Assembly: GCA_019694755.1 (NCBI GenBank)
Contig: JAIBBI010000032.1
Span: 1 to 41,520, forward strand
Direction of reading: 5' to 3'
Source: Gemmataceae bacterium
GTDB taxonomy: Bacteria > Planctomycetota > Planctomycetia > Gemmatales > Gemmataceae
Length of the DNA stretch: 41,520 nucleotides
A program made the position numbers and the translations under genes. Positions within the stretch are counted from its first letter, which is position 1, and each line of letters starts with the position of its first letter. This document shows, in pieces, positions 26,955 to 41,520 of the stretch. Below the pieces are notes generated by a model. That model did no database searches. It was given only the letters and a program-made list of their open reading frames with translations, and was not told where the DNA came from.

Positions 26955-27490
26955 CTACACCGACTGCAGGAACCGCAGCCGGAATTGCAGAAAATCTCCG
27001 CTGTCGACTGACCCGTTGCCGTCGAAGTCGAAAGCCGGGCTGGTACTGAGGAAGGCCAATCGGAAGGCGAGAAAGTCTGCACTGTCGACCGTGCCGTTGC
27101 CGTCGGTATCGCCGAAGAGGCGGAACAATCCGTTGGGAGGCTGGCCGACCAGGGTGTAATTGCCGCCGGTGTTGCCGTCGGTGTTGCCGTCGAGTGCTTT
27201 TCCGCCGGCGGAGACTTTAGTGTTATCGATCACCAGTGTGTATCGGCCGTCGGCCAGCGACTTGGATTCGACCGCCGAGCCGGCGAGGAATGTCAGCGTC
27301 ACCTTGGTAGTCGTGGTATTGGCGACGACCGCGGACAGGCCCACGGTCGTGCCGCCGAGTTGCCGAGTCAATTGAAACGCACCGGCCGGGGTGCCGGCAA
27401 ATGTGACTACCTGATCGAAGTTGACCTCGATCTGGGTCACCCGGGATCGCTGTGAAGTTCCACCGTTGATGACCACGCTGGCGACGCTGG
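26955..27490 (-). repeat. Shared C-terminal cassette, copy 2
   Basis: It reads VVINGGTSQRSRV at the start, SLADGRYTLV in the middle and FRLFGDTDGNGTVDSADF ... FLQSV at the end. Same organisation as copy 1. Confidence 0.85.
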
Positions 27491-30400
27491 GCGCGAGTTC
27501 GGATTCGAAGGCGCCAATGTCGGTCTTCGCGCCGACGACGCGGGCGAAGTTGCCTCCGCGCTGATCGGTGACGAGGGCACCGCTGTTGTTACCATTGTTG
27601 ATCGCGGGGCTGCCCGGGAGCAGTGCGTGAGTCAGGGTCGCGCCGCCGTTGCTGGCGAGGGGGCCGAGTTTGGCGGGCAGGCCGATTAGCGATGACGTCG
27701 TGCCGAGCGCGTTCAAAGTGCCGATCCCGGACGAACTGCCGAGCAGGCAGTCAGCCAATGTTACGGTACCGCCGATGGAGATGTCGGGCGCCCCGAAACT
27801 GCTCGAGTTGGAGGAGATGATGGAACTTTGCCCAGCCAGGGTCGAATTCCCGGAAGCTCGCCCGAATCCGCCACCGTTTTTGCCGGAGTTGTTGGCCACG
27901 GTTGAGTTATCCACGGCCAATACGCCGGCCCCAAAGATGAACGCGACTCCGCCACCGTAGCCGGCGGCGATGTTGCTGGAGATCGTGCTGTTGCGAATGG
28001 CGGCAGATCCTGTGAGGTTGAGACACAGTCCGCCTCCTTCTCCGACCGACTTATCGACCGTCTGGTTGCCGGAAATGGTGGAATTGGCGATGGAGACCGT
28101 CCCCATCACATAGATGCCGCCGCCCCGGAACTGTGCGGTGTTCCCGGACACGGTCGTCCGGTTCAAGACGAGGGACCCGGCCGGGTAGACGCCGATCGTG
28201 CCGCCGAACGCTCCGGAGTTTCCGGTCAGGGTGGAATCGTTGACGACTACCGATCCTCCGATCACAGATATGGGAGACCCGGCGCCGGGGACCACGGTGT
28301 TGCCTGTAATTGCCATCGAGTTGAGCGTGAGAGTCCCGTTTCCGCTTCGAATGATTGCGCCGCCAGAGTCTCGGCCACCGGTCAGGGTCAGGTCAGAGAT
28401 GGTGACATTCAGGCCGCCGGAGATCGTCAGGGCCCGGCTCAGCCCGGCGGCATCGATCGTGGCCAGACTCGCTCCAGGGCCGGCAATTGTGACGTTCTCC
28501 GAGATCGTCATCGGCGTGCCGGCCAGCGTGATCGTGCGAGGCGAGGCGAAAAAAGCGGAATCGAAGGTGACGGTGTTCGAGCCAACGACGGTGTTTGCGT
28601 CGATGATCTGCTGCCGGAGGCTGCCCGCGCCACTGTCCGCCGTATTGCGGACCACGAAGTCCGGCGGAAGTTCGACCGCGCCAATGTCGGCCCGGGCGCT
28701 GGATATCCGGGGCTGCCCGCGCTGATCGAGTGTCAGGCCCGCGGGGTTGCTGCCGTTGTCGCGGACGGGGCTGTCGAAGGCTGGCAGAATCGTTTGCGTG
28801 GTCCCGCCGTTGTTGGCCAGGGCCCCGAGTTTGAAGTTCTGGCCAACCAGTGCATTGCTCGTGGCGTCAGCAATCAGCCCTCCCACACCAGGCACGCCGA
28901 CCGCGCTATTGGTGGCATACACGCCCAAAGCCGAGTAAGTGTCTTCGTTCGCGCCCGCGGTGTGGACGTTACTGCTAACGATGCAACTGGTGAGCGCGAT
29001 ATCACCGGCCAGCCCGGCGACCCGCGACACGCCGCCGCCGCCGAACGTCCCGGATGCCGAGTTATAGGCGATCGTCGAGTTCTGCACGGTCAGCGTACCG
29101 GTGAACGATGTGACGAAGAGGGCCCCGCCCTGGCCGTTCGTCCTGTTGGTGGCAAACGTGCTGCTCCGCACCACACTCGACGGGACCGAACCGGAGATCA
29201 CGATCGCGCCGCCGCCCTGGGTGTTTCCGCTGCCGTTGGCAATGTTGTCGGAAAACGTCGAGTCGAAGACTTCGAGCTTTTGGCAGCTTTCCGCCGCGAT
29301 CGCACCGCCGCTGACCGACGCGTTGTTCTTGGCGAACGTGCAACGCTGGACGGAGAGCTGACCTTTGCCGATCCAGACGGCCGCACCTGCGGCGGCGGTG
29401 TTGTTCTCGAAGCGGCAATCGACGAGGCTGAGATTTTGGTCGCCGACCAGGATCGAACCTCCGTTGCCCGTCGTGGACCCTGATTTGAAAGTAATGCCCG
29501 AGAATGCGAACGGGTCGCCGGTATTCGCGGACCCAAGGTTGAAGTGCCGAAATCCGCCGATTGACGTCAGGGTGACGTTGCTTCCGCTGGGGCCGGTGAC
29601 GGTGAGTGGTTCATTGAGGTTCATTTCCCCCGACCACGGGATGTTGCGAGCGACGTTGAACACGGCCGGGTCAAACGTGATCGTGTTAGGACCCGTGAAC
29701 GCTTCGGCGTCTGTGATCAGTTGGCGGAGGCTCCCGGCCCCCTTGTCCGCCGACGACCGGACAATCCAGTCGGCAAATTCGATGGCGCCAATATCGGGTG
29801 CGCCGTCCAGAATCCTCGGATAGCCGATCCCACGGGTGTCGAACGGTTCGTTATTGGTAAGTCCGTTGGCGATCAGCGGGCTACCCAAAAGAGGCATCCG
29901 GGTCTGGACCCGGCCGCCGTTGGCCTGCAGTGGTCCGAGTTTGGCATCCAGGGGGCTTGCCTGGGTGCCGAGTTGGTTGTTTTTGCCCGTGAAAAGAGAA
30001 TTGCCGGAACCGACCACGCCGATCAGATTGTTGTCGCCGTTCCAGAGAGTGGTGAACATGCACGACACGTCGTTGAGATTGGAATTGTTGCCGTTGGCGT
30101 TTGTGTTGTTGGCGATGACCGAGCTGAAAAGGCTGACCTGAGCGAAGTTCGTTGAGCCAGAAGAATCAATGCGAATGCCAGCCGTGTTCACCGCGGTCGA
30201 TTGGTTATGGCTGATCGTGACGTTGTTGAGGATCAGTGTGCCGTTGAGGTCGAGCGTGCCGATGCCGCCACCGAACACGCCGTTCTTCGCGAGATTATTC
30301 GTGATTGTCGAGTTTCGGATCGCAAAGCCGTATACCCCGCGGATCTTGCCAAGAAATGCGATTCCGCCACCGACATGTTGCGACCCGTCAAACGGCGTCC

Positions 30401-31103
30401 AGTTGCCGGTATTGCCGGAAATCGTGGACTCCCGGATGATCAGCGACTGTTCCCGGCCCCCCGTCAGTTCACCCGTGACGGCGATGCCGCCGCCGTTGCC
30501 TTCCAAGGCGAAGTTGTTGGAGATCGTGGAGGCAAAGACGTTGATTGTTCCTCCGGTTGTTCCAAGCGTCGCTTCGAAACCGAGCGCAAGTCCGCCTCCT
30601 GACTTGTCAGCGGTGTTCCCCGTCACTACGCACCGATCAAGGGTAAAGGCCTCGTCTTCGACGAAAACTGCCCCGCCTTGACCGTTCTGATCCACGCTGG
30701 CGGCATTGAGAAACTTGGCGTAGCCACCGGTGAGAGTGAGGTCGCGGAGAGTGATCGAGGTTCCGGCCGGCGAAAACTTCGTATCGAAGAGCCGACTTAG
30801 GCCTCCTGCGGTAATGGTTAGCTTGTCAGCCCCGGGGCCGCGGATGAGTAGGCCGTCTCCGTCGATGTGGATTCCGTTCGGGCTGGACAGCCCGGCATTG
30901 ATATTCAGCATGCCGGTGAGCGATGCCTGGAAGTCGATTGTGTCCGCTCCGACGGAGTTGTTCGAATCCAGCACGGCCTGCCGGAGCGAGCCCGGCCCAA
31001 AGCTGTTCAAGTTCGTCACGGTAAAGACGGCGGGGGCGATGCGGCCCTCGAACTGTTCCAGGTTCAACATTCGCCGGAACACGCGGCGGCGTGGCTTGGC
31101 CAT
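26955..31103 (-). CDS. Exported right-handed beta-helix protein with three tandem units and dockerin-like tail (1,382 aa)
   Basis: Start ATG at 31101-31103, with GGAG (31111-31114) 7 bases upstream. The N-terminus is basic (KPRRRVFRR) with an FEGRIAP motif (18-24), a variant of the planctomycete LExRxxP leader. Three units begin with 'GPGSLRQAVLD' (about residue 36), 'GAGSLRQLITD' (about 453) and 'GAGSLRQQIID' (about 822). Each continues through rungs like 'STISGN' and 'GGGI', and closes with a choice-of-anchor-Q-type phrase (LLGSPLIANG / DSPVRDNG / LLPGSPAINNG, then DIGAIEF / DIGAVEL / DIGAFES). Residues from about 1204 are the shared tail, with EF-hand-like loops after 1326. This architecture suggests a surface-exposed beta-helix, possibly a carbohydrate binder or adhesin; no catalytic residues are recognisable. 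It is divergent from the sigma factor gene. Confidence 0.92.
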   Translation of the reverse strand: MAKPRRRVFRRMLNLEQFEGRIAPAVFTVTNLNSFGPGSLRQAVLDSNNSVGADTIDFQASLTGMLNINAGLSSPNGIHIDGDGLLIRGPGADKLTITAGGLSRLFDTKFSPAGTSITLRDLTLTGGYAKFLNAASVDQNGQGGAVFVEDEAFTLDRCVVTGNTADKSGGGLALGFEATLGTTGGTINVFASTISNNFALEGNGGGIAVTGELTGGREQSLIIRESTISGNTGNWTPFDGSQHVGGGIAFLGKIRGVYGFAIRNSTITNNLAKNGVFGGGIGTLDLNGTLILNNVTISHNQSTAVNTAGIRIDSSGSTNFAQVSLFSSVIANNTNANGNNSNLNDVSCMFTTLWNGDNNLIGVVGSGNSLFTGKNNQLGTQASPLDAKLGPLQANGGRVQTRMPLLGSPLIANGLTNNEPFDTRGIGYPRILDGAPDIGAIEFADWIVRSSADKGAGSLRQLITDAEAFTGPNTITFDPAVFNVARNIPWSGEMNLNEPLTVTGPSGSNVTLTSIGGFRHFNLGSANTGDPFAFSGITFKSGSTTGNGGSILVGDQNLSLVDCRFENNTAAAGAAVWIGKGQLSVQRCTFAKNNASVSGGAIAAESCQKLEVFDSTFSDNIANGSGNTQGGGAIVISGSVPSSVVRSSTFATNRTNGQGGALFVTSFTGTLTVQNSTIAYNSASGTFGGGGVSRVAGLAGDIALTSCIVSSNVHTAGANEDTYSALGVYATNSAVGVPGVGGLIADATSNALVGQNFKLGALANNGGTTQTILPAFDSPVRDNGSNPAGLTLDQRGQPRISSARADIGAVELPPDFVVRNTADSGAGSLRQQIIDANTVVGSNTVTFDSAFFASPRTITLAGTPMTISENVTIAGPGASLATIDAAGLSRALTISGGLNVTISDLTLTGGRDSGGAIIRSGNGTLTLNSMAITGNTVVPGAGSPISVIGGSVVVNDSTLTGNSGAFGGTIGVYPAGSLVLNRTTVSGNTAQFRGGGIYVMGTVSIANSTISGNQTVDKSVGEGGGLCLNLTGSAAIRNSTISSNIAAGYGGGVAFIFGAGVLAVDNSTVANNSGKNGGGFGRASGNSTLAGQSSIISSNSSSFGAPDISIGGTVTLADCLLGSSSGIGTLNALGTTSSLIGLPAKLGPLASNGGATLTHALLPGSPAINNGNNSGALVTDQRGGNFARVVGAKTDIGAFESELAPSVASVVINGGTSQRSRVTQIEVNFDQVVTFAGTPAGAFQLTRQLGGTTVGLSAVVANTTTTKVTLTFLAGSAVESKSLADGRYTLVIDNTKVSAGGKALDGNTDGNTGGNYTLVGQPPNGLFRLFGDTDGNGTVDSADFLAFRLAFLSTSPAFDFDGNGSVDSGDFLQFRLRFLQSV

Positions 31104-31242: not shown

Positions 31243-31851
31243 ATGGCAGACGGACCGAATGCACTAACCAGCCCGACCCTGTTGGGCCGGCTCCGGCAGT
31301 CTCCGGACGATCCGGCCGCATGGGATGAATTCTCGCGCCGATACGGGGCCATGATCCATCGCTGGTGCCGAAACTGGGGATTGCAACTTGCGGACGCGGA
31401 CGATGTGGTGCAGAACGTCCTGCTCGAGCTATCCCGGCAGATGCGGGAGTTCGAGTACGATCCGGCAGGGAGCTTTCGGGCGTGGCTGAAGACGGTCGCC
31501 CGTCGGGCGTGGATCAGGTACCGCGACAGTCGCCGCCGACAACAGGGTTCACCGGCTCACGATGCAGTGCTCGACGAACTGTGCGACCCGACCGCGGAAG
31601 ACGACCTGATCCGCCGACTGGAAGAGGAGTATGAGCGAGAACTTCTCGAACGTGCCCTGGCGCGGGTCCGATTGCGAGTCAAGCCGTCCACGTTTGACTC
31701 CTTTCGGCTGACCGCACTGGAAGGCCTGAGCGGGAAGGACGCGGCTGAGCGAATCGGGGTACCAATTACCCATGTGTTTGTGGCCAAGGCCAACGTGCAA
31801 AAGATGATCCGCGAGGAAATCACGGACCTCGATCGCGGGGCCGCGCCATGA
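31243..31851 (+). CDS. ECF-type RNA polymerase sigma factor (planctomycete type)
   Basis: A 202-residue protein from ATG 31243 (MADGPNALTSPTLL). The frame stays open far upstream over the opposite gene, but homology-like sequence begins here. In-frame ATG 31207 (MTFISARD) is the alternative start, and neither has a strong ribosome binding site. Region 2 covers about residues 27-97 (DADDVVQNVLLELS, then FRAWLKTVARRAWIRYRDSRR, the core- and -10-binding helices). Region 4 covers about 135-190 (FRLTALEGLSGKDAAERIGVPITHVFVAKANV, an HTH). There is no region 1 or 3, as is usual for ECF factors. It overlaps the zinc-motif/kinase gene by an ATGA, so the two are translationally coupled. It probably directs transcription in response to that partner. 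Target genes are unknown; the divergent surface-protein gene is a candidate. Confidence 0.9.
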   Translation: MADGPNALTSPTLLGRLRQSPDDPAAWDEFSRRYGAMIHRWCRNWGLQLADADDVVQNVLLELSRQMREFEYDPAGSFRAWLKTVARRAWIRYRDSRRRQQGSPAHDAVLDELCDPTAEDDLIRRLEEEYERELLERALARVRLRVKPSTFDSFRLTALEGLSGKDAAERIGVPITHVFVAKANVQKMIREEITDLDRGAAP

Positions 31852-34800
31852 GCAGTTGCCCACTCTCCGCGGACCTCCAGCGACTCTTTACAGGCGAGCT
31901 GGACGGGGAGGCCACCGCCCGGATGGATCGGCACGTCGAGGCCTGCCACGTCTGCCAGGCTCAATTGGCCAGCCTGACGGATTCAGCCGACGCCGATCGC
32001 TGGCGAAATCTGCTCGCTTCAGCCGAGGGCGAGGAAACCGATTCCTACCAGATCACCCCGCCCCGCCGGGAGCCGCGGTCGGAACCGGTACCGGAGATTC
32101 CCGGCTATCGCATCATCCGTGAGATCGGTCGGGGTGGTGCGGCGACGGTGTATCTTGCCCGCCAGGTCAGTCTGAACCGTCTCGTCGCATTGAAGATCCT
32201 CCGTGGCGGCGTGGACCCCGGCGCTGTTCAGCGCTTTCGGTCCGAAGCTGAGGCCGCCGCCCGGTTGCGGCACCCCAACATCGTCGTGGTCCACGAAGTC
32301 GGCGAACATGCCGGGCTGTTTTTTCTGGCTCTGGAGTACTTCGACGGCGGAACTCTGGCGGAGTTCGCCGGCCGGGAGCCGTTGCCTCCGCGCGTTGCCG
32401 CCCGGATTCTCGAGCCTGTGGCGCGGGCTCTGCACCACGCGCATCAGGCCCAAGTCATCCATCGCGATATCAAACCGAGTAACATCCTGCTGCAGCATGC
32501 GGAAGGCAAAAGGGGGCGCACCGGTGAACTGTCCCACGGCGATATTCAAGCGATCGACCCGAAAGTCTGCGATTTCGGTCTGGCCCGTCAATTAGACGAA
32601 TCACACAGACTGACACGTACGCGGGACCTGCTTGGCACGCCGGTGTACATGGCGCCGGAACTCATCGCCGACGCCGGGGCGGCCGCCCCCACTTCGGACG
32701 TCTACGCCGTCGGAGTCGTGCTCTATGAATTGCTCACCGGTCGGCCGCCGTTTTTCGGTAACTCGCCGATGGACATCCTGCTCCAGTCGAGGGATGTCGA
32801 CCCGGTGGCCCCGCGCCGCCTCCGGCCCGACATCCCGTTCGACTTGCAGACAATTTGCCTGAAATGTCTTGAAAAGGAACCCGGACGGCGATACGCATCC
32901 GCACAGGAATTGGGCGATGAATTACAACGGTTCCTGGCCGGTCAGCCCATCCGTGCCCGACCGATCTCGAAACTGGCGCATGCGGCGCGGTGGGCCCGCC
33001 GACACAAATCGGTCGCCGCGCTGCTGACCATGCTAATGGTCGTCGTAGTCGCCGGTACCGCGTCTGCCGTGATCGCGGCCGACCACTTCCGCCGCACAGC
33101 GGCCGACATGCAGAAACTCGCCGACGAAAAGGAGGCGGAGCGGCAGAAGACTGACGAACAACGCGAGCGGACACTTCAGACCCTGTACTTTACGCGTGCC
33201 AATCTTGCTGGGCAGTCGCTCGCCGCCATAGACAGTGGGCAACAGGTGGAGTTGTTTCTGCGCGAATGGCGCGGACTCAAGGCGCGGTTGGACCCGCGGG
33301 GCTGGGAGTGGTATTACTTCAATGCGATTCACCGCCAGGCCGCGTTGACTCTACACGGCCACGAACTTGATGTGATGGCCTTGGCCTGGAGTTCTGATGG
33401 CCGGCGACTGGCGTCCGCAGGATTCGGTCGGGCGCTGCATGTCTGGGACGCGGAATCAGGCCGCCAGTTGTCGATGACGAAGGCCGGTTGGGGAATCACC
33501 GCGATTCAGTGGAGCCGCGATGGCCGCCGCATCTTGACCCTCGGCGCGGATCAACTGGTCCACGAACACGACGGCGCGACCGGCGAGCAGATCCGACAAC
33601 TGTTGCCGGACAGAAAGGTACGCACCACCAGCAACGACGGCCGGAAGTTCGTCGGGTTCGCCGGCAATGTCATTGCGATCTGGAACGACCGGGGCGAGGT
33701 CGAAAGCGAATTCGCCGGTCACACCGAGCCGCCGCTCGTCGTCGCCTGGAGTCCTGCGGATCAATTCGTCGCCAGTTGTGAGAGGGGCGGTCGACTCCTT
33801 CTTTGGCAACCCGGTCGGCAGAGCCCGGATCGCGCAATTGCGACCGGCCACGAGATCGTCGCCCTCCGGTGGAGCCACGACGGACAGAGAATTGCCTGCG
33901 CGCATTCGTCGGCGAAAATCTCACTGTGGGATGTGGCGACCGGTCGGCTGCTCCGGGAGTTTTCACTCGGGTCGACTTCATTCGCCAAATGCCTTGACTT
34001 CAGTCCGGACGGTAAGACGCTCGCCGCAGGGATGATCGATAGCAAGGTGAAGCTGTGGGACGTGGCGACCGGCCGAGAAACCAGCTCGCTCTCCGAGCAT
34101 CAGTTCGTCGTACACTCCGTGGCGTTTCACCCGGACGGGCATTGGCTGGCATCGGGCAACGGCGGTTGGAACGGGCAGATCAAGCTCTGGAAAATCTCTG
34201 ACATCGTAAACTCCGGCGACTTCGCCGCCGTCGCAGAAAAGGACTGTCAGGCCTTCTGGGACGCGACCGGACGGTATCTCGTGGTTGGCGATACCAGCGG
34301 GCACCGGATTCTCGACGGGCAGGACGGCCGTGTGCTCCGGGCGATCACCGGGAGTGTCATGCGCGGCTCAATCGCCACCGCCGACGGGCGACAGTTCATC
34401 GGTCGCGACGATCGCCAAGCTCTGACGATTTGGGATCTCGACGGCAGTGCTCGTCGGCTTCCGGCAGAATTCGACGACGGGCAGGCTCGCAGAATTGCGA
34501 CCAGCCCCGACGGCCGCTACGTGGCTACGATCAGTTGGAGAGATTCGAAACCGGACCGGTTTCGATTGCGAGTCTGGAATCTCCAGACGGGAAAATGCGT
34601 CTGCGACCGCTCCGGAAACGGCGGAAGCTGGAGTCCCGACGGCCGGTGGTTCGCCGTGGGCGACGTCTACAACATCCAATTGCTCGACACGGATAGATTT
34701 GAGGTCGTTTCGAACTGGGCTTCCCCGGAGTCCGGCAACGACCCGCTCTTTTTTCATCCGAAAAGCAGTCAACTGGCATGTGTCTATCGTAACAACGTGG

Positions 34801-35525
34801 TCGTTCGAAGCGTTTCAACCGGCGTCGTTTTGTTTCAACTCGTTGGCCACAACGACTTCGTTAGCTCAGTGAAGTGGTTGTCGGACGGTTCTCGCATCGC
34901 CACCGGATCGCACGACGGGACGGTGCGGGTCTGGGACGGCAAGTCAGGACAATTGATCGCCACGTTACGAGGACACACCGGGCCCGTCTATTCCGTCGCA
35001 TGGAGTCCCGACGGACGCCGGCTGATCTCGGCAGGAAGTGGAATGGTCCGACACTGGGACGCGAGGCGCGGTTTTGAACTGGAAAAATTCTCTGAACCCA
35101 TTCCCTCGGGTTCCCCGCCACCGCCGGAGTTGCAGGCGACATTTGCCAGTTCTGGTTGGTGGGTGATCGATGGCGATGAGTGGGATCCCGCCGGGCCGGA
35201 CCCCTTCATGCACAAGAAGATTCAGCCTCGATGGTTCGCGCCGTCTTCCGATCCCAACGGTTTCCTTCCCTTGGCGAACAGCGAAGTCGTCTATCTTCGT
35301 CGCGTGTTTGCCGGGAAGACTGCAAGGGTCGCAATCCGCCGTACCGGAGAAATTGCGACCCGATTGTGGTGGAATGGAACGCTGCTCGACAATGCTCCGC
35401 GTCATGAAGTGTCACTATCGCCCGGCTGGCACACTTTTGTCATTCAAATCAGCGATCCGGTCAGGCAAATGGAACAAACTGCCCGCCCCAATGCCGGCTT
35501 GTACTTCCGCCTCGATTCGGAATAA
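31848..35525 (+). CDS. Membrane Ser/Thr protein kinase with N-terminal anti-sigma-like zinc motif and WD40 propellers (1,225 aa)
   Basis: Residues 1-45 resemble a zinc-binding anti-sigma (ZAS) domain with H29-x3-C33-x2-C36. Residues 87-370 are a Hanks-type kinase: Gly loop G94-x-G96, Lys116, HRDIKPSN (catalytic Asp207), DFG 242-244, APE 269-271. It looks active. A transmembrane helix spans about 389-410, followed by a charged coiled-coil-like stretch (415-445). Residues about 500-1085 hold fourteen WD40-like repeats, enough for two seven-bladed propellers, and 1085-1225 a beta-rich C-terminal domain. The kinase would be cytoplasmic and the WD40 part on the far side of the membrane. With the ATGA overlap to the sigma gene, the simple reading is that the zinc motif holds the sigma factor and the sensor part or kinase activity controls its release. 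This is inferred, not shown. Confidence 0.92.
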   Translation: MSSCPLSADLQRLFTGELDGEATARMDRHVEACHVCQAQLASLTDSADADRWRNLLASAEGEETDSYQITPPRREPRSEPVPEIPGYRIIREIGRGGAATVYLARQVSLNRLVALKILRGGVDPGAVQRFRSEAEAAARLRHPNIVVVHEVGEHAGLFFLALEYFDGGTLAEFAGREPLPPRVAARILEPVARALHHAHQAQVIHRDIKPSNILLQHAEGKRGRTGELSHGDIQAIDPKVCDFGLARQLDESHRLTRTRDLLGTPVYMAPELIADAGAAAPTSDVYAVGVVLYELLTGRPPFFGNSPMDILLQSRDVDPVAPRRLRPDIPFDLQTICLKCLEKEPGRRYASAQELGDELQRFLAGQPIRARPISKLAHAARWARRHKSVAALLTMLMVVVVAGTASAVIAADHFRRTAADMQKLADEKEAERQKTDEQRERTLQTLYFTRANLAGQSLAAIDSGQQVELFLREWRGLKARLDPRGWEWYYFNAIHRQAALTLHGHELDVMALAWSSDGRRLASAGFGRALHVWDAESGRQLSMTKAGWGITAIQWSRDGRRILTLGADQLVHEHDGATGEQIRQLLPDRKVRTTSNDGRKFVGFAGNVIAIWNDRGEVESEFAGHTEPPLVVAWSPADQFVASCERGGRLLLWQPGRQSPDRAIATGHEIVALRWSHDGQRIACAHSSAKISLWDVATGRLLREFSLGSTSFAKCLDFSPDGKTLAAGMIDSKVKLWDVATGRETSSLSEHQFVVHSVAFHPDGHWLASGNGGWNGQIKLWKISDIVNSGDFAAVAEKDCQAFWDATGRYLVVGDTSGHRILDGQDGRVLRAITGSVMRGSIATADGRQFIGRDDRQALTIWDLDGSARRLPAEFDDGQARRIATSPDGRYVATISWRDSKPDRFRLRVWNLQTGKCVCDRSGNGGSWSPDGRWFAVGDVYNIQLLDTDRFEVVSNWASPESGNDPLFFHPKSSQLACVYRNNVVVRSVSTGVVLFQLVGHNDFVSSVKWLSDGSRIATGSHDGTVRVWDGKSGQLIATLRGHTGPVYSVAWSPDGRRLISAGSGMVRHWDARRGFELEKFSEPIPSGSPPPPELQATFASSGWWVIDGDEWDPAGPDPFMHKKIQPRWFAPSSDPNGFLPLANSEVVYLRRVFAGKTARVAIRRTGEIATRLWWNGTLLDNAPRHEVSLSPGWHTFVIQISDPVRQMEQTARPNAGLYFRLDSE

Positions 35526-35912: not shown

Positions 35913-36445
35913 CTACACCGCCTGCAGGAACCGCAGGCGGAACTGCAGGAAGTCGCTGCTGTCGACTGTGCCGCTGCCGTCATGGTCGAAAGCCAAGCTC
36001 GAACTGAGGAACGCCAGGCGGAAGGCGAGGAAGTCGCTGGAATTGACCGTGCCGTCGCCGTCGGCGTCGCCGAAGAGGCGGAACAACCCGTTGGCGGGCG
36101 TGCCGACGAGGGTGTAGTCGTCGCCGGGCGTGCCGTTGCCGTCGCCGTCGAGGTTGGCGATCTGCGATGCCAGCACAGTTAGCGTGTAGCGGCCATCGGC
36201 CAGGCTGCCGAACTCGACCGGCCCACCGGTGAACGTCAGCGTCACGTTGTTGCCCGACACCGAAGTCGCCAGGCCCACGACGGCGTTGTCGGATTGACGC
36301 TTGAGCTGGAACGCATCGGCGGTGCTACCGGGCAGCAGGGGCGGATTGTTGAAGCTGACGACGAGGCTGGTCACCCGCGATCGCTGGGCCGAGCCATCGT
36401 TAATGGTGACTGACTGGATCTTGGCAGCCTGCACCTCGAACGCGC
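35913..36445 (-). repeat. Shared C-terminal cassette, copy 3
   Basis: It reads VTINDGSAQRSRV, SLADGRYTLTV, FRLFGDADGDGTVNSSDF ... FLQAV. In its last 190 or so bases the DNA is very close to copy 4 (37886-38075), closer than protein-level relatedness would need. Confidence 0.85.
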
Positions 36446-37850
36446 CGATGTCGGCCTTGCCGCCGACGACTCTTGCGAACCCCGGACCGCGTTGATCCGT
36501 AGTCAGCCCGGAGACGTTGGAACCCGCATTGATCGCGGGGCTGCCGGGCAGGAGCGGGATCGTCATCGTCGGTCCACCGTAGTTGCCGAATGTGCCCAGC
36601 CCGGCGGCAGCCGCCGACATGTTCAACAGGTTGTTGCCGCCGATGCCAACGATACCGACAGCGTCGCCTCCGGTGTTGCCCGCGACAATAGTGCTCGCAA
36701 GTCCAGGAGCGAGGTCATCCCATGACAAGCCGCCGCCGGTGCCGGCGAAGTTGCCACTGATGGTCGAATTCATCAACGACGCCAAGGCCTGATAGCCGAC
36801 GATAATTGCGCCGCCAGAGCTCGCGGAATTGCCTGTGAGTGTGCAGTTTGCCAGGGTGAGTCGGTCTTCGTAGTCGACGTAGATACCGCCCCCGGAACCG
36901 GTCGCTGAATTTCCGAAAATGGCGCATCCAGTCATTGTTAAGGCAGCACCGAACGGATCGGAGCTAACAACGATTCCACCGCCAGAGCCCGCCAAATTGT
37001 TACTGATGGTGGAGTTCGTAACGGTCGCAAAGCCACTGTTGAACATTCCTCCTCCGGCGCCAGCGGAATTTTCGTGGATAGTGGAACTTGTCACGGTCAT
37101 GCCACCATCGACGCCGCCACCCCTGTTGATCGCCGAGTTGCCGCTGACAACGCAGTTGGACAATGTGCCGGTACCGGAGACGATACCGCCCCCGCTGTCG
37201 CCCGCCGAGTTGCCGCTGATGGTGGCATTTGTCGCTGTCAGACTGTGACTCCAGATGCCTCCACCAGAGCCGCTCGCGGAGTTGCTACTGACAACGCAAT
37301 TCGTTGCGATTAGATAGGCAAAAGCGGGGTAAATACCATAGCTGCATATCCCTCCGCCAAACCCCGCCGAGTTGCCAGTAACGGTGGAATTTGACACCGT
37401 CAGAGTCCCGTAATTGAGGATTCCGCCACCGGGGGCGTTCACGGCCTTGCCCGCCGCTATGGTCACACCATTGATCGTCGAAGTCACCTTGGTGCCATTG
37501 ACAAAGACCCGGCTCTGTTTGTTGCCACTGATCGTCAGCAGGCTGGCCCCCGGGCCGGCGATGGTCGTCGCCCCGGTTAGCGTCAGTTGGCCGGTGGTGA
37601 GCGTGATGGTCTGGGCCGAGGCAAACGTCACGGCATCGAAGGCGATCGTGTCGGCCCCGGCGGCTGCGTTGGCGTCAAGGACCGCTTGCCGCAACGAGCC
37701 GGCCCCGGCGTTGTTGGTATTCGTCACCGTGAACGTCGCCGGCACCGTGCGGGCTTCGAGCTGTTGCACGCCGGGCCGGGTAGGACGAATCACGCGGGAT
37801 CGCGTCGAAGCGGTCAGCCACCGTCGGAAGGTACGGATCAAGTTTGTCAT
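35913..37850 (-). CDS. Exported right-handed beta-helix protein with dockerin-like tail (645 aa)
   Basis: Start ATG at 37848-37850. No Shine-Dalgarno is visible (CCCTCCCACCAAA precedes it), but the stop codon of the upstream gene is only 35 bases away, so coupling is plausible. The N-terminus is basic, with LEARTVPA at 31-38. GAGSLRQAVLDANA (49-62) is the usual opening of planctomycete beta-helix proteins. Residues 75-400 are rungs such as 'STVTGNSAGFGGGI' and 'STISNNLAGSGGGI'. A closing choice-of-anchor-Q-like phrase (LLPGSPAINAGS ... TDQRG ... DIGAFEV) lies near 425-468. The shared tail runs from about 470, with EF-hand-like loops from 588. It is a single-unit relative of the three-unit protein at 26955-31103. 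Probably surface-attached; ligand unknown. Confidence 0.92.
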   Translation of the reverse strand: MTNLIRTFRRWLTASTRSRVIRPTRPGVQQLEARTVPATFTVTNTNNAGAGSLRQAVLDANAAAGADTIAFDAVTFASAQTITLTTGQLTLTGATTIAGPGASLLTISGNKQSRVFVNGTKVTSTINGVTIAAGKAVNAPGGGILNYGTLTVSNSTVTGNSAGFGGGICSYGIYPAFAYLIATNCVVSSNSASGSGGGIWSHSLTATNATISGNSAGDSGGGIVSGTGTLSNCVVSGNSAINRGGGVDGGMTVTSSTIHENSAGAGGGMFNSGFATVTNSTISNNLAGSGGGIVVSSDPFGAALTMTGCAIFGNSATGSGGGIYVDYEDRLTLANCTLTGNSASSGGAIIVGYQALASLMNSTISGNFAGTGGGLSWDDLAPGLASTIVAGNTGGDAVGIVGIGGNNLLNMSAAAAGLGTFGNYGGPTMTIPLLPGSPAINAGSNVSGLTTDQRGPGFARVVGGKADIGAFEVQAAKIQSVTINDGSAQRSRVTSLVVSFNNPPLLPGSTADAFQLKRQSDNAVVGLATSVSGNNVTLTFTGGPVEFGSLADGRYTLTVLASQIANLDGDGNGTPGDDYTLVGTPANGLFRLFGDADGDGTVNSSDFLAFRLAFLSSSLAFDHDGSGTVDSSDFLQFRLRFLQAV

Positions 37851-37885: not shown

Positions 37886-38420
37886 TCAGATCACCTGAAG
37901 GAACCGCAGGCGGAACTGCAGGAAGTCGCTGCTGTCCACCGTTCCGTTGTTGTTGAAGTCGAACGCGGCGTTGTTACTCAGGAACGCCAGGCGGAAGGCG
38001 AGGAAGTCGGTGGAATTGACCGTGCCGTTGCCGTCGGCATCGCCGAAGAGGCGGAACAAACCGTTGGCGGGCGTGCCGACGAGGACGTAGTCGTCACCGG
38101 CGTTTCCATCCCCGTTGCCGTCGAGCTGACCTCCACCGCCGCCGAGGTTGGCGGCATGGACCGTCAGCGTATATCGGCCGTCGACCAGGGAACCGAACTC
38201 CGACAGCCCGCCGGTGAACGTCAGTTGCACGACCGTCCCGGCCCCGGAGTTGTCAATCGCGGCCTGTAATGTCACGGCCTGCCCGTCGCTTTGCCGTTGC
38301 AGCGAGAACGCCGATACGGGCGAAACCGGCAACGAAACCAACTGGCTGAATGTCACGGTGATTTTGCGAACGGTCGACCGTTGTGCGCTTCCGTCCCCGA
38401 TCGTGACACCGGAGACAGTC
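37886..38420 (-). repeat. Shared C-terminal cassette, copy 4
   Basis: It reads VTIGDGSAQRSTV, SLVDGRYTLTV, FRLFGDADGNGTVNSTDF, FDFNNNGTVDSSDF, FLQVI. Near-identical at DNA level to copy 3 over the EF-hand-like end. Confidence 0.85.
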
Positions 38421-41400
38421 ACCGGCGCGTACGGCGCGACGGAGTCGTTATCGAGGTTGAGGCAGGCGACATCGGGCGGATTGTAACCCTGGTAGGCCAG
38501 GTCCGCACTGACGGCCGGCGAGGATACGATCAGGTACGACCGGTTCCCGTCGATCACAGCATCTTCGACGCCGGACACGGTGACGACCTGCGGTATGTTC
38601 CAGTTGCCGGGGGTAAAGGTCAGCAGTGTCGAGGAGACGTTCCCCTCCTGGATGTTGCTGCTGTTGAGCCCGAGGGAGACGGGAGCGGTCGGCTGGCTCG
38701 TCAGCACCACGGCAAACTGTGCAGACTGACCACCCTCGCTGGTGACGATGTTGAACGTCGGCGTGATCGCAATCCCCTTCGTGTCGTTGTCGACATTCAC
38801 GACGGAGATGTCGGCCGGATTCAAGCCGTTGTAGAACGGGTCGACGCTGACGACGGGCGATGTCACGATCGAATAGGCCATGTCGCCGTCGTCGAGGAAA
38901 TCGTCGATGCCGGTAATGGTCACCGTCTGCGGCTGAAACCAGTCCGATTGGGTAAACGTCAGCGAGGTCGTCGGCGTACTGCCCTCCGTGGCATCGCTGG
39001 TGGCGAGCGAGAAGCTGACCGAGGCTGCCGGGGCGGAATTGAGCCGGACCGTAAACGTCGCCGAGCCGCCCGCTTCCGTCGTCACCAGTCCCGTCGTCGG
39101 CGTGATCACAACCCCGGCCACGTCGACCGACTTGTTCGTCACCGAAACGTCCGGCGGATTCTGATTGTTGAACGACGGATCCGCGCTCACGGCCGGCGAG
39201 GTGATGATCGTGTACGGCACATCACCGTCGACCACGAAGTCGAACACGCCGGTGACCGTGACGACACGGGGCACGGCCCAGTCGGCCGGCGTGAAGACGA
39301 TGGTCGACGGCGATGGCGTGCCCTCGCTCGTGTTGCTCGAGGTGAACTGCATCGTGACCGACGAACTCGGCGCCTGCGTGAGGGAGACGTTGAAAAAGGC
39401 CTGCCCGCCGGCCTCGGTGGTGACCAGTCCGGACGTCGGGGAGACAACAATGAGCTGATCGGAAACACGGAGCCTCGCGCCCGTCGGCTGATACTCCACG
39501 ACAAACGACTTGCCGCCAAACGTCCCACCGAGGACGGAAGAAAACGTGCCGGTCGGATTCGATCCCACCACCACCGGGAACAGTTCCCCCGTCACCGGGT
39601 CGAATCCGCCGAGTCGCGTGATGTTGAGTTCGCCACCGAGCGTTGTGCTCTTGCCGACGAGGAGTCGGTCAAAGGCGCTGCTGTTGGCCAGTTCGATTCC
39701 AAGAGTGCCGGCTGTCTGAGTGAAATTGCCGGTGATTGTCAGACTGCCGACGCTGTTGATGCCGCCGGGGTAGACCGCGCCGCCGGCGTTCACGACGTCA
39801 CCAACGACGGTTCCCGCACCCGCGAGGTTGGCACTGTGACCGAGCTTCAATCTGCCGACAAACTGACTTGTAGCGTCGACGTTCACGTCACAGTTCTGAA
39901 CGGCCGACCCTCCATTGAAGAGTGTGATCTTTCCGCTGTTGGAGGCGAGGAGTGCGGAGCGTCCTTCGTAAATGCCGTAGTAGTCGGCGTAGTTGGGATC
40001 TCGGTCGGTGAACGTGGTGAGGCCGGAGAGGTCGACCACTGAGCCGGGGTCTTGGGCGGTGACGCGGACCGAGCGGCCACGGGTATCGCCGACGTTCGGG
40101 TCGTTGATGGACACCAGGGAGTGCAGGTCGATGACGCCACCGAGTGTCGCGTCGATTTGCAGCGTGTTGGCCACGTCGTCGCCCTGCGTCAGGCTGACCA
40201 AATTGCCCAGGTCCAGCTTGCTCCCGGTCCCCGACACCAGGAACGACCGCCGGCCCCCGACTCCCAATGGCTGCAAGGAATAGCTGACCGCCGCCGGGAA
40301 CGACAGGCTCGCCCCGCCCGTCACTGTCACATTGCACCCATCGATATTGGAGAGCACCGGCAGCGCGACCGTGCCCCCGGAGACGACCCACGACGACCCG
40401 CTCGCGTCAGCCAGGGCCGGCAACGCATGCACGCCGCCCACCAGAGTAAACAACAGCGCGTTGGCCGACTTGAGCTGAGGTAATGCGAACGTCGACACGG
40501 CGTCGAACCGGACGTCGACGTTGGACGCGGTGGCCAACGCCGGGACCGTGATCTTTCCGCTGTTGGAGGCGAGGAGTGCGGAGCGTCCTTCGTAAATGCC
40601 GTAGTAGTCGGCGTAGTTGGGATCTCGGTCGGTGAACGTGGTGAGGCCGGAGAGGTCGACCACCGAGCCGGGGTCTTGGGCGGTGACGCGGACCGAGCGG
40701 CCACGGGTGTCGCCGACGTTCGGGTCGTTGATGGACACCAGGGAGTGCAGGTCGATGACGCCACCGAGTGTCGCGTCGATTTGCAGCGTGTTGGCCACGT
40801 CGTCGCCCTGCGTCAGGCTGACCAAATTGCCCAGGTCCAGCTTGCTCCCGGTCCCCGACACCAGGAACGACCGCCGGCCCCCGACTCCCAATGGCTGCAA
40901 GGAATAGCTGACCGCGGCGGGGAAAGAGAGCGTGGAACCGCCGGAGACGATGAAGCTGGCGGCATCAATGTTGGCGAGTAGGGGAGCCGAGACGGACCCG
41001 CCGGAATTGACCCATTGGGAGGATGGGGCGACGGTCAGTGCGGGAACCGCCAGGCTTCCGGCCGAGACGATGAAGGCGGTATTCGCGGCATCGGTCAAGG
41101 CCGGCAGCGACTGAGCGCCACTGGCAATGGTCACAGACAGGCCGTTGGCCGACTTGAGCTGAGGCAATGCGAACGTCGACACGGCGTCGAATCGGACGTC
41201 GACGTTGGACGCGGTGGCCAACGCCGGGACCGTGATCTTTCCGCTGTTGGAGGCGAGGAGTGCGGAGCGTCCTTCGTAAATGCCGTAGTAGTCGGCGTAG
41301 TTGGGATCTCGGTCGGTGAACGTGGTGAGGCCGGAGAGGTCGACCACTGAGCCGGGGTCTTGGGCGGTGACGCGGACCGAGCGGCCACGGGTATCGCCGA

Positions 41401-41520
41401 CGTTCGGGTCGTTGATGGACACCAGGGAGTGCAGGTCGATGACGCCACCGAGTGTCGCGTCGATTTGCAGCGTGTTGGCCACGTCGTCGCCCTGCGTCAG
41501 GCTGACCAAATTGCCCAGGT
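37886..41520 (-). CDS. Large exported beta-helix/Calx-beta-like protein with dockerin-like tail, N-terminus cut by window edge
   Basis: The frame is open to the right edge (LGNLVSLTQG reads through base 41520), so about 1,210 C-terminal codons are visible and the start lies outside. The first part is a beta-helix built from large near-identical repeats (LVSLTQGDDV ... DRDPNYADYYGIYEGRS) joined by rungs of about 20 residues (SGGxxxxPxL). A segment like autotransporter-associated strands follows (about 39460-39920; LAGAGTVVGDV, FTQTAGTLGIEL). Three tandem Calx-beta-like repeats of about 110 residues come next (about 38440-39450; 'GLVTTEAGG', 'LTFT..DW..PQTVTI', 'D.A.DGD..Y'). The shared tail (about 37886-38420) has two EF-hand-like loops and ends FLQVI. 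It precedes the 645-residue gene by 35 bases, so the two are probably co-transcribed. Likely a surface adhesin; ligand unknown. Confidence 0.9.
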   Translation of the reverse strand, partial: LGNLVSLTQGDDVANTLQIDATLGGVIDLHSLVSINDPNVGDTRGRSVRVTAQDPGSVVDLSGLTTFTDRDPNYADYYGIYEGRSALLASNSGKITVPALATASNVDVRFDAVSTFALPQLKSANGLSVTIASGAQSLPALTDAANTAFIVSAGSLAVPALTVAPSSQWVNSGGSVSAPLLANIDAASFIVSGGSTLSFPAAVSYSLQPLGVGGRRSFLVSGTGSKLDLGNLVSLTQGDDVANTLQIDATLGGVIDLHSLVSINDPNVGDTRGRSVRVTAQDPGSVVDLSGLTTFTDRDPNYADYYGIYEGRSALLASNSGKITVPALATASNVDVRFDAVSTFALPQLKSANALLFTLVGGVHALPALADASGSSWVVSGGTVALPVLSNIDGCNVTVTGGASLSFPAAVSYSLQPLGVGGRRSFLVSGTGSKLDLGNLVSLTQGDDVANTLQIDATLGGVIDLHSLVSINDPNVGDTRGRSVRVTAQDPGSVVDLSGLTTFTDRDPNYADYYGIYEGRSALLASNSGKITLFNGGSAVQNCDVNVDATSQFVGRLKLGHSANLAGAGTVVGDVVNAGGAVYPGGINSVGSLTITGNFTQTAGTLGIELANSSAFDRLLVGKSTTLGGELNITRLGGFDPVTGELFPVVVGSNPTGTFSSVLGGTFGGKSFVVEYQPTGARLRVSDQLIVVSPTSGLVTTEAGGQAFFNVSLTQAPSSSVTMQFTSSNTSEGTPSPSTIVFTPADWAVPRVVTVTGVFDFVVDGDVPYTIITSPAVSADPSFNNQNPPDVSVTNKSVDVAGVVITPTTGLVTTEAGGSATFTVRLNSAPAASVSFSLATSDATEGSTPTTSLTFTQSDWFQPQTVTITGIDDFLDDGDMAYSIVTSPVVSVDPFYNGLNPADISVVNVDNDTKGIAITPTFNIVTSEGGQSAQFAVVLTSQPTAPVSLGLNSSNIQEGNVSSTLLTFTPGNWNIPQVVTVSGVEDAVIDGNRSYLIVSSPAVSADLAYQGYNPPDVACLNLDNDSVAPYAPVTVSGVTIGDGSAQRSTVRKITVTFSQLVSLPVSPVSAFSLQRQSDGQAVTLQAAIDNSGAGTVVQLTFTGGLSEFGSLVDGRYTLTVHAANLGGGGGQLDGNGDGNAGDDYVLVGTPANGLFRLFGDADGNGTVNSTDFLAFRLAFLSNNAAFDFNNNGTVDSSDFLQFRLRFLQVI
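38440..39450 (-). repeat. Three tandem Calx-beta-like repeats
   Basis: Each repeat of about 110 residues has 'TTEAGG' or 'TSEGGQ' near its start, then an 'F.V.L...P...V...' strand, 'SNTSEG', 'SDATEG' or 'SNIQEG', a 'TFTPADW', 'TFTQSDW' or 'TFTPGNW' turn followed by 'PQVVTVSG', and an acidic 'DDGD..Y.I..SP..S.DP' end. These resemble Calx-beta or related Ig-fold repeats of bacterial surface proteins. Assignment to that exact family is by pattern only. Confidence 0.6.
39924..40291 (-). repeat. Near-identical intragenic DNA repeat, copy A
   Basis: 368 bases that recur 624 bases further on (40548-40915) with only a few silent differences. It encodes the block from 'SLQPLGVGGRR' to 'ALLASNSGKI'. 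Its left flank is unlike the other copies, so it is the C-terminal boundary copy. Confidence 0.9.
40461..40915 (-). repeat. Near-identical intragenic DNA repeat, copy B
   Basis: The middle copy. It also shares the left extension (40461-40547) with copy C but not with copy A. At two silent sites (Ser TCG instead of TCA, Asp GAC instead of GAT) it differs from both outer copies. Confidence 0.9.
41145..41520 (-). repeat. Near-identical intragenic DNA repeat, copy C (cut by window edge)
   Basis: It starts 684 bases after the matching point of copy B and runs off the window. Where visible it agrees with copy A at the two silent sites at which copy B differs. The gene therefore probably carries further copies to the right. 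Confidence 0.85.

Follow-up and report, generated by a model that had tools for sequence, protein, structure and literature searches.

The locus analysed here raises the question of how an ECF sigma factor is controlled when its gene adjoins that of a Hanks-type receptor kinase and its DAED-type acidic motif is intact. ECF genes that adjoin kinase genes, the phospho-activation of their products, the WD40 kinases of planctomycetes and membrane-bound ZAS anti-sigma factors are already known, and, according to a 2022 review, STPK-linked ECFs whose DAED motif is intact may follow a different mechanism and have yet to be characterised (PMC8999054). The sigma/ZAS-kinase family described below fits this gap, since its sigma factors are STPK-linked and have an intact DAED-type motif. 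The pair in question lies in a stretch of 41,520 nucleotides from a Gemmataceae bacterium (GCA_019694755.1, contig JAIBBI010000032.1), referred to as the window, in which the following features were assigned:

31243..31851, plus strand: ECF sigma factor gene, 202 aa; ATG at 31243, TGA at 31849-31851, start chosen by homology to relatives
31336..31539, plus strand: sigma region 2, residues 32-99 (Sigma70_r2, 9.2e-13)
31666..31818, plus strand: sigma region 4, approximate, residues 142-192 (alignment; weak Sigma70_r4_2 match, 0.047)
31848..35525, plus strand: ZAS-kinase-WD40 receptor gene, 1225 aa; its start codon and the sigma stop codon share ATGA (31848-31851)
31848..32030, plus strand: class I (ZAS) anti-sigma domain by homology, residues 1-61 (zf-HC2, profile against the PDB, AF2 model, Foldseek and VIA)
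32106..32906, plus strand: Hanks-type Ser/Thr kinase domain, residues 87-353 (Pkinase, 3.7e-49)
33009..33080, plus strand: single transmembrane helix, residues ~388-411 (hydropathy, sequence)
33141..33332, plus strand: helical stalk, residues ~432-495 (AF2 model, low confidence)
33345..35060, plus strand: WD40 blades, residues ~500-1071, ~14 blades in two propellers (Pfam, AF2 model, Foldseek)
35286..35522, plus strand: C-terminal beta-rich domain, residues ~1147-1225 (AF2 model, medium confidence)
26955-31103, 35913-37850 and 37886-41509, minus strand: surface-type proteins with dockerin-like repeats at the end, flanking the pair

The product of the first gene of the pair is an ECF sigma factor according to its matches to Sigma70_r2 in Pfam and to TIGR02937 (1e-18), and the alignment profile of its family matched solved ECF sigma factors in a profile search. 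The acidic motif in region 2 is intact (D51-A52-D53-D54, 31393-31404). When the upstream sequence was examined for a promoter or for autoregulation, no sigma-70-type site was prominent. About ten related sigma genes are preceded by an element GAAACCTGACAGC or GAAACCTGACAGCG-like, the latter at loci L021, L168, L171, L172, L182, L197, L199, L259 and L294 and in most of them with an A/T run 15-25 bases later; it is possibly an autoregulated promoter. The window itself has no such element, and the genome to which it belongs showed no enrichment of it.

The second gene encodes a receptor with the architecture of the planctomycete WD40 receptor kinases, that is, a kinase, one membrane helix and a C-terminal WD40 array, with a sidedness that is predicted. 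The kinase has all catalytic residues (K116, H205-R206-D207 and D242-F-G), and the K, HRD, DFG and APE motifs were all found. The membrane helix is preceded on its N-terminal side by an R/K-rich stretch (RWARRHK). The AF2 model of residues 431-1225 contained ~55 propeller strands, equal to ~14 blades, and this part gave many Pfam WD40 matches, while Foldseek matched it to tandem propellers, among them 2ymu and Apaf-1. An earlier note, made from the sequence alone, had described the ATGA overlap of the two genes, the complete Hanks kinase, the single helix and fourteen WD40-like repeats, all of which were confirmed, and had omitted the C-terminal beta domain. The latter is also present in the paralogue L021 (phmmer) and had no match in Pfam or among PDB sequences. 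The prediction that the WD40 part lies outside the cytoplasm fits the positive-inside pattern around the helix, and the same location has been predicted in the literature for the WD40 Ser/Thr kinases of Planctomycetota, which likewise combine a kinase and one membrane helix with long, putatively periplasmic WD40 arrays; unlike the receptor described here, the kinases of that survey come with no mention of an anti-sigma domain (PMC11032199).

It is the N-terminus that sets this receptor apart. It carries the four zinc ligands of a ZAS domain, C4 (31857), H29 (31932), C33 (31944) and C36 (31953), of which the earlier note had recognised H29-x3-C33-x2-C36 and missed C4. The Pfam family zf-HC2 (PF13490) matched residues 16-37 with an E-value of 2.7e-4, slightly under the curated cut-off, and 73 of 97 ZAS members that were scanned singly matched it as well. 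The 14 intact paralogues have C-x(21-25)-H-x3-C-x2-C ahead of the kinase domain, with all four ligands invariant. The wider set of 189 relatives has C or H, H, C and C without exception; the first ligand is C in 181 of them and H in the other 8. The zinc motif is not a chance occurrence, given that these positions stay constant in a domain that is otherwise mostly variable. The spacing between the first ligand and the histidine is 25 in 161 of the 189 relatives; ChrR has the same ligand spacing of 25.

A profile built from 97 relatives was then searched against all PDB sequences and gave only six significant matches, the next one being at 0.74. Five of them were the anti-sigma factors DdvA (4.5e-9), RslA (5.7e-6), RsiW (8.8e-5) and ChrR (1.6e-4 and 1.7e-4), and the sixth was a CHAT-domain protein with the N-terminal sequence of DdvA (5.7e-8). 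The AF2 model of the domain (pLDDT 81.6) has a confident three-helix core (H7-15, H20-32, H34-61) and the further helix expected of the fold, the region of helix 4 being merged into a long, less certain helix. The top 11 rows of a Foldseek search with this model were all anti-sigma chains, with ChrR at 1.4 A over 45 columns, VIA gave a Z of 8.1 to ChrR, and the best matches of both searches were RsiW, RslA, ChrR and DdvA. Because the domain is small the Foldseek E-values were weak, and the sequence profile is thus the stronger evidence. By homology, the N-terminus of the receptor is a class I (ZAS) anti-sigma domain, as the earlier note had suspected, and the same polypeptide carries a kinase with all its catalytic residues. 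It shares with ChrR, RsiW, RslA and DdvA the sequence family, the fold, the Hx3Cx2C motif with a fourth ligand and the ECF neighbour, and membrane anchoring is common among class I proteins too (~65%, PMC7406223). However, what the known members have at their end is a sensor, a membrane anchor or a cupin, whereas this one continues into a Hanks kinase and WD40 propellers that are predicted to be extracytoplasmic.

In the own genome ~107 kinase ORFs were located and their surroundings compared. All 15 ZAS kinases, 14 of them intact and one frameshifted, adjoin an ECF gene, and these ECF genes belong to one subgroup; only 21 of the ~92 other kinases adjoin an ECF gene (Fisher 7e-9), which supports the coupling postulated in the earlier note. 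Most of the ZAS kinase genes lie directly downstream of the sigma gene; L033 is divergent and L016 has its sigma gene downstream. The closest paralogue of the pair is L021 (G000:C160), whose sigma factor is 70% identical and which lies a few kb from a second, divergent pair, L033, also on G000:C160. The fifteenth pair, L098 (G000:C168:3154-4433), looks broken, with a stop inside the sigma match and the ZAS domain in a separate frame of 77 residues, which could be due to decay or to an assembly error.

In total 189 sigma/ZAS-kinase pairs were gathered, giving a family of at least 189, and their kinases are intact almost throughout: K116 was present in 189/189, the D of HRD in 185/185 and the D of DFG in 184/185 readable sequences. 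The pairs of other genomes were sampled through the sigma factor, and there the ZAS domain was present in 170 of the 178 kinases whose genes lie downstream of a well-scoring sigma gene of the subgroup or diverge from it. Among 148 genomes taken from the class of this organism, 114 had the subgroup. To remove the bias of sampling through the sigma factor, five other genomes were searched for ZAS kinases by zf-HC2 alone; with the already known ones included, an ECF gene lay within 3 kb of 14 of the 22, whereas the other 8 had none at this distance (L358, L360, L361, L362, L364, L365, L366 and L368). Therefore, the domain may serve another role in some kinases, or the partner may be encoded elsewhere. 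Three of these eight have H as first ligand (HPxxxxLxxF). From the side of the sigma factor, 35 of 215 loci had no kinase in the stretch compared; five of those examined had a divergent ZAS gene, and the remaining ones examined look like true orphans. L102 is an orphan of the subgroup. The association of ZAS kinases with ECF genes is thus strong but not obligatory, and unlinked pairs are possible. Natural sigma-kinase fusions were not found among the relatives searched, and the long open frames listed proved not to be fusions.

More distant sigma factors of the subgroup precede kinases that have no ZAS domain (L118, L119, L120, L127, L129, L133-L135, L145 and L371, the last from Phycisphaerae), and most of these kinases have a short acidic/aromatic stretch before the kinase domain, for example DDEAWLAQAREAL or SAWYSDPATLLETLRR, which could be a minimal sigma-binding helix. 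A profile search of genome contigs gave one Phycisphaerae locus, the kinase of which has no ZAS domain.

The kinases without an ECF neighbour (8 of 22 in the five genomes) would also suit a different function, in which the zinc domain regulates the kinase as a redox or zinc switch and sigma genes are merely frequent neighbours; soluble ZAS proteins are indeed known for zinc and redox sensing (PMC7406223). We consider this improbable in view of the 15 of 15 ZAS kinases with an ECF neighbour in the own genome and of the way in which the domain has diverged. ZAS distances correlated with sigma distances (r 0.58), and with the kinase domain held fixed the partial r was 0.39 (maximum of 500 permutations, 0.10). 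With the sigma factor fixed, the partial r of ZAS and kinase domains was 0.10, so that the ZAS domain tracks the sigma factor and hardly the kinase domain of its own chain. The distances of the kinase domain follow the sigma factor too (0.62), as is expected of co-inherited genes. When only the own genome was considered, the partial correlation of ZAS and sigma was not significant (P 0.13), and mean-field DCA of sigma and ZAS (~167 effective sequences) gave no couplings above the sigma-kinase control. Coevolution thus lends mild support to a relation between the sigma factor and the ZAS domain, and from the sequence data taken together the domain very likely binds the adjoining sigma factor.

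The DAED-type acidic motif of ECF sigma factors contacts RNA polymerase. Among ZAS-linked sigma factors, 188 of 191 have D or E at position 4 of this motif and none of the 191 has an xxTA motif. In the own genome, 9 of 21 sigma factors beside ZAS-less kinases have xxTA (DATA, SATA, QPTA, QATA), a contrast that was significant within the genome (Fisher 0.005) and against all ZAS-linked sigma factors (1e-10). The xxTA motif resembles the STTA of the phospho-activated ECF43 factors; the other sigma factors beside ZAS-less kinases (DEED, DGED, DASD, GASD and the like) cannot be placed neatly in either class. Such a split is expected if ZAS-linked sigma factors are competent to bind polymerase and need restraint, and xxTA sigma factors are inert until phosphorylated.

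These data bear on the comparison with the ECF43 systems EcfP/PknT and EcfK/PknS, in which an ECF gene likewise stands beside the gene of a transmembrane Hanks kinase. The order of the genes is the same, and the xxTA sigma factors of the own genome suggest that such systems exist in this organism. One might thus assume that the sigma factor is inert until it is phosphorylated in region 2.2 and that the zinc motif is incidental. This is very improbable: ECF43 sigma factors lack DAED and have Thr there, whereas the sigma factor of the window has D51-A-D-D54 and xxTA does not occur in its 191 ZAS-linked relatives. ECF43 kinases have not been reported with a ZAS domain.

According to the main rival explanation, the ZAS domain serves for docking and does not inhibit: it would bring the sigma factor to the kinase, and phosphorylation would raise or lower the activity of the sigma factor. 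In keeping with this, almost every member has an intact kinase, and two kinases, PknT and PknS, are established to phosphorylate their sigma factors, EcfP and EcfK, with some of the sites lying in the sigma2-sigma4 linker (PMC8999054, PMC13147305). Furthermore, T9, S/T12 and T150 of the sigma factor are kept in at least 95% of relatives and are candidate phosphorylation sites by conservation; however, they stand at the starts of helices and may instead be structural caps. Since the solved relatives of the domain are anti-sigma factors that occlude the polymerase-binding surfaces of sigma factors, and since the sigma factor has retained its acidic motif, we regard docking without inhibition as rather unlikely.

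On balance we favour a membrane-tethered anti-sigma factor, with its own kinase as the probable trigger of release, the receptor and its sigma factor forming a one-protein sensor together with its output. In the resting state, the cytoplasmic ZAS domain would bind the sigma factor at the membrane and so keep it from RNA polymerase. Once a signal from beyond the membrane, presumably read by the WD40 and C-terminal part, has switched on the kinase, phosphorylation of the ZAS domain, of the linker or of the bound sigma factor would set the sigma factor free; in the alignment of relatives, however, no Ser or Thr of the ZAS core was prominent by its conservation. Since its DAED-type motif is intact, the freed sigma factor would already be able to bind RNA polymerase. 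A similar order of events is described for M. tuberculosis, where PknB phosphorylates the ZAS anti-sigma factors RshA and RseA and thereby releases SigH and SigE (PMC8999054); there, kinase and anti-sigma factor are separate proteins, whereas here they are one chain.

The three surface-type genes listed above lie on both sides of the pair, the one at 26955-31103 being divergent from the sigma gene across ~140 bases, and the earlier note had taken this setting as an indication of the targets. This was not supported, since the N-terminal signature of the surface proteins was not enriched near ZAS kinases, with ~6 occurrences at 189 ZAS loci (746 kb) compared to 3 at 89 control kinase loci (494 kb), the stretches being short; nothing general therefore ties the sigma/ZAS-kinase system to surface proteins. 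Further upstream, 2142-26564 is a single open frame of 8140 aa with PKD, cadherin-like and Ig-like domains in its last quarter.

In the open-access literature we found no description of an anti-sigma domain fused to a kinase; the ECF classification papers likeliest to list it were outside the scope of this search. The family offers a concrete and testable answer to how DAED-intact, kinase-linked ECFs are regulated, and its recurrence suggests a widespread way of gene control. We tentatively suggest that it may represent a third, widespread mode of ECF control, in which a single polypeptide is both receptor kinase and anti-sigma factor, and action of the kinase in cis, on the ZAS domain or on the sigma factor that it holds, releases a polymerase-competent sigma factor, in parallel to ECF43-like phospho-activation in the same genome. 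The data suggest that one planctomycete genome apparently uses both designs. If this is true, receptor Ser/Thr kinases and anti-sigma factors, two main classes of bacterial signalling proteins, would be joined in one protein across the class to which this organism belongs.
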